Below are positions 20,975 to 44,210 of a DNA stretch of 47,601 nucleotides, one piece after another; the first letter of the stretch is position 1, and each line of letters opens with the position of its first letter. The DNA is taken from positions 1 to 47,601 of the forward strand of contig JADZCJ010000042.1 of NCBI GenBank assembly GCA_020851635.1. The letters run 5' to 3'. The position numbers were made by a program, and so were the translations under genes. The DNA comes from Anaerolineae bacterium. GTDB lineage: Bacteria > Chloroflexota > Anaerolineae > UBA4142 > SHND01. The notes beneath the pieces were generated by a model, which searched no databases, was not told the origin of the DNA, and saw only the letters and a list, made by a program, of their open reading frames with translations.

Positions 20975-21003
20975 TTGACATTCCAAAGGGCGAACCGTAA
21001 TAT
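20975..21003 (+). promoter_or_regulatory. Sigma70-type promoter of the acyl-CoA ligase gene
   Basis: A perfect -35 TTGACA at 20975-20980 is followed after 17 bases by TAATAT at 20998-21003. The same pair and spacing occurs before the NurA gene at 32002. Transcription from here would give a leader of about 165 bases that contains the dispersed repeat at 21042-21142. Confidence 0.7.
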
Positions 21004-21041
21004 AACTCTTGAGCGTGTGCTTGGCGGTATTTGTTTGTTGC

Positions 21042-21142
21042 GCGTCAACATGAGATTGGGGCGGTGCGGTTCATCGCATCGAGGATCCAGTTTTATGCTC
21101 GGGCGCCGACGCTTGATTCGCCAATTTCATCATGTAGTTGCA
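21042..21142 (+). repeat. Dispersed structured repeat, copy A (in the leader of the acyl-CoA ligase gene)
   Basis: This segment is a relative of the element at 44015-44116. The core from 21085 has a 12-base block (ATCCAGTTTTAT) identical in both copies, then 40 positions with 8 differences by hand count, ending in ATTTCATCATGTAGTTGC. The left end, CAACATGAGA, also matches copy B. The ends form an imperfect inverted repeat here (ACATGA against TCATGT). It lies between the promoter at 20975 and the ribosome-binding site of the next gene. Confidence 0.7.
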
Positions 21143-21178
21143 TTGTCTGCCGACTCGTTCAACGAGGAAAGGAGCCGC

Positions 21179-22903
21179 ATGGATCGCGTTTGGTACAAAC
21201 ACTATGAAAAAGGGGTCCCTCCGACCCTGAACTACCCGCAAGTCCCACTTTTCAAGCTGTTGGATGACGCTGCTGCCGAATATCCCGACCGTCAGGCGAT
21301 GGTCTTTGGCGCGGTGGCGCACAAACTTCCCGGGCAGCCCTTGATGGATGCTTCCATGTCGTATCGCGAGTTTCGCGATGCCGTGAACCGCTTTGCGAAT
21401 GCGCTTGTCAAGATGGGCGTGAAAAAAGGTGACCGCGTTGCCATTTATTTGCCAAACTGTCCGCAGTTTGCCATCGCCTTTTACGGCACGCTCAAGGCAG
21501 GCGGAGTAATTGCTCCGGTCAACCCAATCTATACGCCGCGTGAACTAGAGTTCATTCTTCAAGATTCGGGCGCCGAGACGATAGTAGCGCTTTCACAGTT
21601 CTATCCCAAGCTGCAAGAGGTGCGCAGCAAGACGAAACTCAAGAATGTGATTGTTGCCAACATCAAGGAATATTTTCCGGGGATGCTCAAGACGCTGTTT
21701 ACGCTCGCGATGGAAAAAAAGGAAGGGCATCGCGTCGAGTTGGCTAAAGGGGACCACTGGTTTCAGGTCGTAATAAAAAATGAATCGTCGGTCGCGCCGA
21801 ATGTTGCGGTCAAGTCCGAAGATGACGCAGTCCTGCTATACACGGGCGGGACGACGGGCTTGCCAAAAGCGGCGCAGCTCACGCACGCAAACCTGCTTGC
21901 GAATGCGATGCAGCTGCGCGCATGGGTCCCATCCGCCAAAGAAGGCAAAGAAGCGTATCTGACCGCGCTGCCGATGTTTCACTCGTACGCCATGACGACC
22001 TGCATGAACAACTCGGTGATGCTCGCGGGCACAATGATTCTCATCCCGAACCCGCGTGATCTGGAGCACGTGCTCAAATCCATCGCCAAACACAGACCCA
22101 CCTTTTTCCCCGGTGTGCCGACCATGTACACTGCCATCAACAACAACCCTGCCACCAAGAACTATGATCTCAAATCCATTCGCGCATGTCTGAGCGGCGC
22201 GGCGGGTCTGCCGGTCGAGGTTGCCAAAAATTTCGAAAAAATGACTGGCGCGCGCCTCGTCGAGGGATATGGGTTGAGCGAGGCATCGCCCGTGGTCACG
22301 GCAAACCCGATCTTTGGGGAAAACCGGATTGGCACCATCGGCGTGCCTGTTTCCGACACCGATGTAAAATTGTTTGATGTAGAGACGGGCGAAAAAGAAG
22401 TGCCTGTTGGGACACCGGGTGAATTGTGCGTCAAGGGACCACAGGTGATGAAAGGATATTGGAACAAGCCCGAAGAATCCGCCAAAGCGGTGCGTGATGG
22501 ATGGCTGCATACGGGTGATGTGGCGGTGATGGATGAGGATGGGTATTTCCGCATCGTGGACCGTCTCAAAGAGATGATCATTTCCGGCGGATACAACATT
22601 TACCCGCGCGAAATCGAAGAAGTGCTCTATAGTCATCCTGCGGTGATGGATGCCGCGGCGATCGGTGTTCCCGACTCGTATCGCGGGGAATCGGCAAAAG
22701 CGTTTGTCGTGCTCAAGCCCGGTCAGACGGCGACCGCCGACGAACTCATCGCCCACTGCAAGCAAAATCTCGCGCCATACAAGGTGCCGCGAAGTATCGA
22801 ATTCCGCGATTCACTGCCCAAGACGCTCATTGGCAAGATTCTGCGACGTGAGCTGGTTGCGGAAGAAAAGCAAAAGATGGCGGCAGCCGAGACAAAACAA
22901 TAG
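21179..22903 (+). CDS. Long-chain fatty acid--CoA ligase (AMP-forming)
   Basis: This enzyme activates a fatty acid to its acyl-AMP and then acyl-CoA. From the ATG at 21179 it has 574 residues. An excellent ribosome-binding site (AGGAAAGGAG) ends 4 bases before this ATG, which decides the start against longer in-frame readings. The ATP-binding signature YTGGTTGLPKAA lies near residue 220, the second motif GYGLSEASPVV near 360, the hinge and Asp in WLHTGDVAVMDEDGYFRIVD, and the catalytic C-terminal Lys in LPKTLIGKILRREL. It resembles FadD-type long-chain ligases; chain-length preference is not readable from sequence. It ends at a strong terminator. Confidence 0.9.
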   Translation: MDRVWYKHYEKGVPPTLNYPQVPLFKLLDDAAAEYPDRQAMVFGAVAHKLPGQPLMDASMSYREFRDAVNRFANALVKMGVKKGDRVAIYLPNCPQFAIAFYGTLKAGGVIAPVNPIYTPRELEFILQDSGAETIVALSQFYPKLQEVRSKTKLKNVIVANIKEYFPGMLKTLFTLAMEKKEGHRVELAKGDHWFQVVIKNESSVAPNVAVKSEDDAVLLYTGGTTGLPKAAQLTHANLLANAMQLRAWVPSAKEGKEAYLTALPMFHSYAMTTCMNNSVMLAGTMILIPNPRDLEHVLKSIAKHRPTFFPGVPTMYTAINNNPATKNYDLKSIRACLSGAAGLPVEVAKNFEKMTGARLVEGYGLSEASPVVTANPIFGENRIGTIGVPVSDTDVKLFDVETGEKEVPVGTPGELCVKGPQVMKGYWNKPEESAKAVRDGWLHTGDVAVMDEDGYFRIVDRLKEMIISGGYNIYPREIEEVLYSHPAVMDAAAIGVPDSYRGESAKAFVVLKPGQTATADELIAHCKQNLAPYKVPRSIEFRDSLPKTLIGKILRRELVAEEKQKMAAAETKQ

Positions 22904-41252: not shown

Positions 41253-44021
41253 ATGTATCGAACTTCTGACGAGATTCGAAAATCATTCAAAGAATTTTTT
41301 GTCAAGCGCGGGCACGCGTCGGTGCCCAGCTCGTCGCTCATTCCTGCCGGCGACCCAACCCTGATGTTTGCCAATTCGGGAATGGTGCAGTTCAAGGACT
41401 TGTTCTTGGGCGTGGAAAAGCGCGCCTACACGCGTGCCACCACAGCGCAAAAAGCTATGCGTGTGTCGGGCAAGCACAATGATTTTGAGAACGTGGGTCC
41501 CTCACCGCGCCATCACACCTTTTTCGAAATGCTCGGCAATTTTTCGTTTGGTGACTATTTCAAAAAGGATGCGGTCCAATATGCCTGGGATTTGCTGGTA
41601 AACGAGTGGAAACTCGACCCACAGCGGCTCTGGTTCACCGTGTTTGCAGGCGATGAGAGCATTCCCGGCGACACGGAAGCTATCGAGTTGTGGAAAAAGG
41701 TCGGCGCAGACCCCACGCATATTTTGAAATTCGGCGCAAAAGACAATTTCTGGCAAATGGGCGAGACCGGTCCCTGCGGTCCAAATTCGGAAATTCACTA
41801 TTATCGCGGCGAGCATCCCGAGGACCCGCAGTTCAACCGCAGCGAATATGTGAATGGCGACGGCGAGGAAATCATCGAATTGTGGAACCTCGTCTTTATG
41901 CAGTTCAACCGCATCAAGGTCGGCGAGGACAAATATGTGCTCGAGCCGCTGCCCAAGCCGTCTGTGGATACAGGGGCAGGGCTGGAACGCATTGCGGCGA
42001 TCATGCAGGGCAAACTGTCCAATTACGAGACAGACCTATTCATGCCCATTATCGAGACCACGCGCCAGTTGTTGAATCGCCCCGATGATGACTATGACGT
42101 CGAAAAGCGGGGCGTCTCGTATCGCGTCATTGCAGACCATGCGCGCGCGGTGACCTTTCTGATCGCCGATGGCGTGAACCCCAGTAATGTGGGACGCGGT
42201 TATGTGACGCGTCTGATTCTGCGCCGCGCAGCGCGCCATGGACAGCTGTTGGGTTTCACCGAGCCGTTCCTGGACCGGGTCATTCCGACCGTGATCGAGG
42301 AGATGGGCGAGGAATACCCCGAGCTTTATCAGGAACGTGAGCGAATCCTCAAGGTCGCGCGCGAGGAAGAAGAGAAGTTTCTTGCCACTTTGCGCGTCGG
42401 CTCGAACATGCTCGACGAAATCGTTGCGGGTCTCAAGGCGCAAGGAACTACCCGGATTTCCGGCGAGGCGGCGTTCAAGCTCTATGATACCTACGGTTTT
42501 CCTCTTGAATTGACGCTGGAAGTGGCGCGCGAGAATGAGATGTTGGTGGATGAAGCCGCGTTCAGGACGGCGATGGAACAAGCCAAAGCCACCTCGCGCA
42601 AACTCTCCGCCACGGGCAAAATGGACGGCGCGGCGTATCAAAACACACGCGAATTGTATGACGCGCTCCATGCGCGCGCCGCGCTCCCGCAGGGCGGTGT
42701 GGTCTACAATCCCTATCAGGGAACAAAAGTAGATACGCGCGTCGTCGGGATTGTGCGCGATGGTGAATTGGTAGATGAACTGGCAACCGGCGAGCGTGGG
42801 CAGCTGGTGCTTGCCGAGACTTGTTTCTATGTCGAGAGTGGCGGTCAAATCAGCGATACGGGCAGTATCTATCATTTGAGGAAAGATGCCGTCACCTTTC
42901 GCGATCCGATCGAATGGAATTTCCGCGTGGACGATACACGGCAGCCGGTGCCCGGCTTTATCGTGCATATCGGCGAGATGTTCAAAGGCACAGCTCGAGT
43001 GAATGATACTGTCGTCGGGCAGGTGGATGCTGACCGTCGCGCGAATATCATGCGCAATCACACGGCGACCCATCTTTTGCATGCCGAGCTGCGCCGAGTT
43101 CTGGGGACACATGTGCATCAGGCGGGTTCGCTTGTCGCGCCGGACCGATTGCGTTTTGACTTTACGCACACCAAACCCGTCACGGCGAACGAGCTATCCG
43201 AAATCGAATCGTCGGTCAACGCGGCGATTTTCAATAATGATTCGGTCGAGCCGCAAGTCCTGCCCAAAGACGAAGCGATTGCGCGCGGCGCAATGGCGCT
43301 TTTTGGCGAAAAGTATGGCGATACAGTCCGCATGGTCGAAATCCGGGACCCGAGCACGGCAGACACCATCTCGCGCGAACTGTGCGGCGGCACACACGTC
43401 GGTCAAACGGGGCAGATCGGCTTGTTCCATATTGTTTCAGAAGGTTCGGTCGCTTCGGGGGTCCGCCGCATCGAGGCGGTCTCGGGAGCGGCGGCATACG
43501 CCGAACTGCGAAAGGGAGTCACCCGGCTTGAACATCTTGCCAATCAGGTCAAGGTGACACCCGACCAGTTGGAACAAAAGATCGCGACCCTGTTGGAGCA
43601 ATCGAACGCGCAGGACAAGGAAATTGCGCGGCTCCGACGCGAGCTCGTCAAGCGTCAGGGCGAAAATGTGGATGATTTGGTCACGCAGGTGGATGGGGTG
43701 CGCGTATTGACGCATATTGTGGACGCGCCCAACCAGGACTTGCTGCGCGAACAGAGCGACTTTTATAAAAACAAGCTCGGCTCGGGCATTGTGGCGCTCG
43801 GCGCGGTCATCAATGAAAAACCGAGTCTGATCGTGGCGGTTACGCCCGACCTGATCGAACGCGGTTTCGACGCGCAAAAGATTGTGCGCGCCTCGGCTCC
43901 GGTCATGGGCGGCGGTGGCGGCGGCAAGCCCTCGCTGGCACAAGCGGGCGGCAAGGACGCGTCAAAACTGCAGCAGGCGCTCGATGAGGTCGTCAAGGTG
44001 GTAACCCGGGCCGGCTACTAG
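41253..44021 (+). CDS. alaS: Alanyl-tRNA synthetase
   Basis: This class II synthetase charges tRNA-Ala. The 922-residue protein has a full catalytic domain (YRTSDEIRKSFKEFFVKRGH at the start, FANSGMVQFKDLFLG, HHTFFEMLGNFSFGDYFK, and the class II motif 3 region TGAGLERIAAIMQGK), the C-terminal editing domain with the zinc ligands HTATH and CGGTHVG, and a DHHA1 domain near the end (GGGGGGKPSLAQAGG). The ATG at 41253 has no Shine-Dalgarno sequence. The last codons and stop lie inside the left arm of a 20-bp inverted repeat (see 44015), an unusual arrangement. Confidence 0.95.
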   Translation: MYRTSDEIRKSFKEFFVKRGHASVPSSSLIPAGDPTLMFANSGMVQFKDLFLGVEKRAYTRATTAQKAMRVSGKHNDFENVGPSPRHHTFFEMLGNFSFGDYFKKDAVQYAWDLLVNEWKLDPQRLWFTVFAGDESIPGDTEAIELWKKVGADPTHILKFGAKDNFWQMGETGPCGPNSEIHYYRGEHPEDPQFNRSEYVNGDGEEIIELWNLVFMQFNRIKVGEDKYVLEPLPKPSVDTGAGLERIAAIMQGKLSNYETDLFMPIIETTRQLLNRPDDDYDVEKRGVSYRVIADHARAVTFLIADGVNPSNVGRGYVTRLILRRAARHGQLLGFTEPFLDRVIPTVIEEMGEEYPELYQERERILKVAREEEEKFLATLRVGSNMLDEIVAGLKAQGTTRISGEAAFKLYDTYGFPLELTLEVARENEMLVDEAAFRTAMEQAKATSRKLSATGKMDGAAYQNTRELYDALHARAALPQGGVVYNPYQGTKVDTRVVGIVRDGELVDELATGERGQLVLAETCFYVESGGQISDTGSIYHLRKDAVTFRDPIEWNFRVDDTRQPVPGFIVHIGEMFKGTARVNDTVVGQVDADRRANIMRNHTATHLLHAELRRVLGTHVHQAGSLVAPDRLRFDFTHTKPVTANELSEIESSVNAAIFNNDSVEPQVLPKDEAIARGAMALFGEKYGDTVRMVEIRDPSTADTISRELCGGTHVGQTGQIGLFHIVSEGSVASGVRRIEAVSGAAAYAELRKGVTRLEHLANQVKVTPDQLEQKIATLLEQSNAQDKEIARLRRELVKRQGENVDDLVTQVDGVRVLTHIVDAPNQDLLREQSDFYKNKLGSGIVALGAVINEKPSLIVAVTPDLIERGFDAQKIVRASAPVMGGGGGGKPSLAQAGGKDASKLQQALDEVVKVVTRAGY

Positions 44022-44116
44022 CGCAACAACATGAGATCGCATAGTGGAGTATCCAGTTTTATAACTCGCGCGCCGGCACTCGACTCGGCGATTTCATCAT
44101 GTTGTTGCGCTAGTAG
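44015..44116 (+). repeat. Dispersed structured repeat, copy B, with perfect 20-bp inverted ends
   Basis: CTACTAGCGCAACAACATGA (44015-44034) is the exact reverse complement of 44097-44116. The centre (44051-44110) matches the repeat at 21085-21142, including the 12-base block ATCCAGTTTTAT. A smaller hairpin (CGCCG/CGGCG) lies in the middle. The left arm covers the last two alaS codons and its TAG stop. A further direct copy of TAGCGCAACAAC follows at 44114-44125, so that sequence flanks the element in direct orientation. It could be a miniature transposable element or a structured RNA. Confidence 0.75.
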
Positions 44117-44210
44117 CGCAACAACCAATTGAAACGATGCTTGCATTCGAAAGCTATGCTGGTATCGTCTTGTCAGATACTTCCCCGCCTCGCTCCCCGT
44201 TCGTTTTTCT

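Follow-up and report, generated by a model that had tools for sequence, protein, structure and literature searches.

The window considered here, a stretch of 47,601 nucleotides from an Anaerolineae bacterium, includes a uridine kinase gene on the reverse strand, a long-chain acyl-CoA ligase gene and alaS. The TTGACA/TAATAT promoter, the ribosome-binding site and the ATG (21179) of the ligase gene are all present in the sequence as an initial annotation had described them, and its estimate of a leader of about 165 bases agrees with the length of about 165-170 bases derived here. The best of the NCBIfam long-chain-fatty-acid--CoA ligase models stay below their cut-offs for this gene, and one subfamily model exceeds its cut-off. 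Within the ligase leader, and again at the end of alaS, lie two copies of a repeat that we term F1. The relevant features are:

20975..21003, plus strand: ligase promoter, TTGACA (20975-20980) and TAATAT (20998-21003) spaced by 17 bp
21034..21145, plus strand: F1 copy A in the acyl-CoA ligase leader; degenerate, of a sub-family with an extra mini-hairpin of 15 nt, both ends eroded
21179..22903, plus strand: long-chain acyl-CoA ligase gene (PF00501, PF13193), behind copy A
44015..44113, plus strand: F1 copy B, an intact palindrome CTACTAGCGCAACAACATGA...TCATCATGTTGTTGCGCTAG (DNA fold z -7.3)
44019..44021, plus strand: TAG stop codon of alaS (ORF 41253-44021, alaS by TIGR00344), made up by the first bases of copy B
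44110..44125, plus strand: partial second F1 left end CTAGTAGCGCAACAAC, recognised by its sequence; it abuts copy B and shares its CTAG

The relationship between the two copies, first noticed in the initial annotation, holds, and only their limits had to be shifted slightly, to about 21034-21145 for copy A and 44015-44113 for copy B. The identical block of 12 bases is ATCCAGTTTTAT, the common left end is CAACATGAGAT, and the estimate of about 80% identity corresponds to 79.5% over a local alignment of 73 columns, with a score that was reached by none of 1000 shuffles of copy A. A covariance model matches copy A at 21033-21148 with 62.3 bits, copy A itself being part of the training set. Its membership in the family is independent of this training, because the 15-nt mini-hairpin is common to copy A and three further copies (L024, L028 and one on contig C46), with 82-85% identity over about 97 columns including the insertion (0/1000 shuffles); for the copy on C46 the identity is 84.7% over 98 columns. 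The arrangement of copy B with its partial second left end recurs in a tandem F1 pair on contig C80.

Copy number, ends and insertion sites of F1

The genome that contains the window (5.8 Mb, 144 contigs) was searched for further copies. BLAST with copy B recovers 41 full or near-full places. The covariance model, which the initial annotation had proposed as a check and which was built from 31 copies, finds at least about 62 strong copies with unrelated flanks at E < 1e-6, plus weaker ones; the number is a minimum, as the scoring covered 150 candidates. In the genome there are 95 occurrences of the 12-mer GCAACAACATGA and none of its reversed control; solo matches to the 12-mer had been considered as ends of larger transposons, and they are instead fragments, decayed copies or chance. 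F1 copies are imperfect palindromes of about 95 bp, those of the copy A sub-family being longer at about 110 bp. Their consensus is close to CTAGTAGTGCAACAACATGAGATTGCGTAGTGGAGTATCCAGTTTTATAACTCGCGCGCCAGCACTTGACTCGGCAATTTCATCATGTTGTTGCACTAG, and they are dispersed on many contigs. Thus, F1 is non-coding, multicopy, dispersed and shorter than about 300 bp, and it is bounded by the terminal inverted repeats TAGTGCAACAACATGA / TCATGTTGTTGCACTA, as is characteristic of a miniature mobile element (MITE). Several contigs (C5, C108, C24, C55, C70 and C131) end about 90-130 bases beyond F1 copies. Two of them, C5 and C108, have exactly 127 identical bases in common, resembling an assembly-graph overlap, which indicates that F1 breaks the assembly or that strains differ there.

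The ends of the element read CTAG-TAGTGCAACAACATGAGATTGC and GCAATTTCATCATGTTGTTGCA-CTAG. Comparison of 39 intact copies gives C-T-A-N-T-A as left flank and T-A-G as right flank. Almost every copy has TA on both sides, CTAG is frequent, and the flanks beyond are unrelated. The base that follows CTA is the same on both sides in 22 of 35 copies, compared to 15.5 expected, with exceptions such as CTAA/CTAG and CTAA/CTAT. Judged from this agreement and its clear exceptions, the target duplication would comprise at least TA and at most four bases; it can be bounded only between TA and CTAG because the sister species, at about 76% identity, are too distant to provide most exact empty sites. The single good empty site is that of C22:46923, where the sister genome G004 reads AGTATAGTCG compared to GGTCTAG-F1-CTAGTCC here.

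The location of F1 is strongly biased, with nearly all copies being intergenic. Inside ORFs of at least 200 codons we find 3 of 61 copies, compared to 77% of random positions; these ORFs are mechanical, and copy A counts as inside one only through a spurious extension of the ligase ORF in the upstream direction. Neighbouring genes are convergent around 17 copies and divergent around 8. About one third of the copies coincide exactly with the stop codon of an adjacent gene, which stays intact. In about twenty cases the copy has its first bases precisely on the stop of a long ORF, which is TAG or occasionally TAA; alaS is one of these. At alaS, C22:46923, C22:55491 and the right side of the C38 copy, the sister genes end on the corresponding residue or very close to it; in particular, alaS orthologues of the sister species do so without F1. 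Hence, these stops are native and no truncations. On C38 both neighbouring ORFs had seemed to end on the element, and alignment with sister sequences suggests that the left ORF is spurious. Since F1 starts with G, an insertion at the TA of C-TA-G in a TAG stop restores TAG. Special targeting of stop codons was considered and rejected. CTAG is rare outside F1, with 86 sites in a 263-kb sample (16 at stops, 36 intergenic, 34 in ORFs), and given this distribution the share of F1 at stops is about that of CTAG availability after loss of in-gene insertions.

Two further repeat families were seen in the vicinity of F1 copies. F2 is a palindrome of about 97 bp (CTAGCAGGTTGTCGGAG...CTCCGACAACCTGCTAG) that always lies within CTAG (L020:1595-1692, L010:1596-1693, L002 and about a dozen more) and abuts F1 in many of the copies retrieved, with CTAG in common; no autonomous partner of F2 was found. 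F3 is about 190 bp long (TATTCC...GGAATA), is, like F2, flanked by TA and directly abuts F1 in several copies. One F3 copy is located in the window at 1282-1470 and is 88-97% identical to copies on C64, C121, C119, C109 and C68.

Multicopy F1 is found only in this species. Elsewhere, the searches recovered no more than one terminal fragment in G004 and a palindrome of distant similarity in G002, the class-wide search giving nothing beyond weak matches in two sister species. The exact F1 end is found in none of about 85,000 other genomes plus viral contigs, a set from which near records of the window genome are possibly excluded. Four sister species (G001, G002, G004 and G005, about 73-77% DNA identity) retain a TTGACA..TAAAAT promoter and the same succession of kinase and ligase genes, the boxes being matched by eye from the leader sequences because the MAFFT leader alignment is poor in the intergenic part. 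F1 is absent from the ligase leader in all four, and it is not found behind alaS in any of the five sister species compared. Thus, copies A and B are both insertions.

A probable IS630-type partner and competing readings

The IS630-type DDE_3 domain occurs at seven places in the genome. One of them, on contig C107, is an IS630-family transposase (NF033545 with 129.5 bits at a cut-off of 100, PF13358 plus helix-turn-helix domains) that lies between CTAGTACACTAACTTGATGAGAATGCGGGGTTGAG and, reversed at the other end, CTAGTACTCCAACATTATGAAATTGCGGGGTC. Without gaps, the ends of this transposon match those of F1 at 27 of 35 and 26 of 32 positions (0/100,000 shuffles), and an inner block, ATGARAWTGC, has the same distance to CTAG in both. 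F1 therefore has its ends in common with an autonomous-type IS630-family transposon. G004 also has this transposon, ends and CTAG flanks included, at a different site. None of the remaining IS630-type genes (L129, L130 and L132-L135) has ends like those of F1. F1 is therefore best read as a MITE of the clade represented by the C107 transposon.

In both genomes the transposase gene is split into two frames with a run of A at their junction (L131:1380-1400, L140), and the copy in G004 has an additional stop. The two-frame arrangement suggests programmed frameshifting, and it could be decay. The candidate transposon is a single copy in the genome and, with its gene split between two frames, may be inactive. 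It also departs from F1 in the terminal 12 bases, so the true partner of F1 may be a lost sister transposon. An F2 copy also lies beside the IS630 transposon in L131, at 2093. In a further genome, G228 (C232, C138, C372, C446, C340 and C311), several short matches of 85-88% identity are confined to the final 30-37 residues of the transposase, which would fit internally deleted derivatives of the IS630 transposon peculiar to G228.

With a probability of about 0.88 we regard F1 as a MITE derived from an IS630-type transposon and mobilised in trans. F1 would retain about 35 bp from each end of such a transposon, and an IS630-type transposase, probably of the C107 type, would recognise the common sub-terminal block (around ATGARAWTGCGGGGT). 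IS630 elements probably prefer TA within CTAG. F1 would insert at TA, preferably within CTAG, and duplicate at least TA. Copies would survive mainly between genes and on TAG stops, because an element starting with G restores TAG. Copy A would have landed downstream of the ligase promoter, where it is decaying, and copy B on the stop of alaS.

For the repeat, the initial annotation had offered two alternatives, an RNA acting in cis and the insertion of a miniature mobile element into a leader. The mobile-element proposal is well supported by dispersed copies with unrelated flanks, terminal inverted repeats, TA or CTAG at the insertion sites, absence in sister species and the IS630-type ends; the RNA proposal is not supported. 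That F1 would be a leader or 3'-end RNA element, conserved or spread for its structure, seems highly improbable. Judged by position, copy A is transcribed as a leader, and the intact copies give a strong hairpin whose right arm bears a constant bulge of 3 nt. Copy B is a nearly full-length palindrome (z -7.3 as DNA, -8.3 as RNA), and in the alignment of 31 copies 96.3% of the stem cells pair, with 4 of 27 pairs changed on both sides. A long hairpin is, however, what an inverted repeat gives. The covariation term of the 31-copy alignment is only -0.2 kcal/mol, and the most variable pair (columns 11/114) is U-A in 15, C-G in 6, U-G in 6 and C-A in 4 copies; with 4 of 31 copies mismatched, the two arms mutate largely separately. 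Copy A has lost most of its terminal pairing and its fold is not clearly better than those of shuffles, an Rfam scan of the window gave no match, and the sister ligase leaders are without F1. Neighbours and orientations of the copies vary, convergent pairs being commonest among opposed ones. Thus, neither a known RNA family nor conserved pairing in a conserved gene context was found. The best reading of copy A is a decaying insertion downstream of the ligase promoter, probably devoid of a regulatory role; such a role is possible, though unsupported. It is very unlikely that copy A was co-opted in the leader, where it might act on RNA stability or translation, or that selection shaped the stop-restoring ends of F1 for safe landing over and above the preference for CTAG.

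Other types of mobile element account for the data less well than an IS630-derived MITE. CTAG on both sides of many copies would also fit a MITE that depends on a different type of transposase and duplicates the 4 bp CTAG, IS5-like as proposed for MITEPsy1, whose insertions follow CTAG or YTAA and duplicate 4 nt (PMC3189936), the likeness to IS630 then being convergent or old. We consider this very unlikely because both ends resemble, without gaps, an IS630 transposon that is itself flanked by CTAG in two genomes, and the fourth flank base differs between the sides in several copies (CTAA/CTAG, CTAA/CTAT). Palindromic, dispersed and extragenic copies are equally in line with a REP/REPIN-like repeat moved by RAYT, a Y1 transposase, and the genome does encode one RAYT-like Y1 gene (contig C44; L103:1068-1854). 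This gene, however, bears a different repeat, several REP-like hairpins GCCAATCTCCCGATTGGC within its coding sequence, and F1, with its CTAG/TA flanks and IS630 ends, is not found near it, which makes this origin scarcely credible. Integron attC sites are marked by RYYYAAC/GTTRRRY boxes, cassette arrays and an integron integrase. By eye, the corresponding box of F1 would read GTTGCAC, unlike GTTRRRY, and the copies are dispersed.

Significance and comparison with known elements

A literature search for such a family in Chloroflexota brought up no paper, and F1 is apparently new to the literature. An apparently undescribed MITE family together with its likely IS630-type partner is thus added in a Chloroflexota genus. 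F1 is an ordinary kind of element, and the structured leader of the ligase gene is explained without a new RNA. The family illustrates that an element inserting at CTAG, which is rare in this genome, can spread among packed genes via TAG stops that stay intact. It also calls for caution, since a palindromic repeat in a leader may mimic a riboswitch until other copies and empty sites are examined.

ERIC and Correia elements are short, palindromic and extragenic as well, and are said to insert at TA and, in places, to be transcribed; F1 differs from them in sequence, length and hosts. REP/REPIN sequences with RAYT are likewise dispersed extragenic palindromes, a trait in common with F1, but the RAYT-like gene of this genome has its own, different hairpins. 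MITEPsy1 of Pseudomonas syringae resembles F1 in its length of 100 bp, its inverted ends and its insertion at CTAG (or YTAA) (PMC3189936). It has been ascribed to an element of IS5 type that duplicates 4 nt (PMC3189936), whereas the ends of F1 match an IS630-family transposon. The closest known system in anatomy, and by analogy probably also in its working, is the RUP element of pneumococcus. RUP is about 107 bp long, has ends like those of IS630-Spn1 of the same genome and is present in about 100 copies; it is extragenic, over-represented between convergent genes and predicted to form a hairpin when transcribed (PMC3049150). Length, IS630-like terminal inverted repeats, multiple extragenic copies, the bias for convergent genes and the hairpin are thus common to both. 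The two elements come from different phyla, and a relation in sequence is neither seen nor expected. RUP, unlike F1, is AT-rich relative to its host, and F1, in contrast to RUP, abuts other TA-flanked repeats and is often located on TAG stops.
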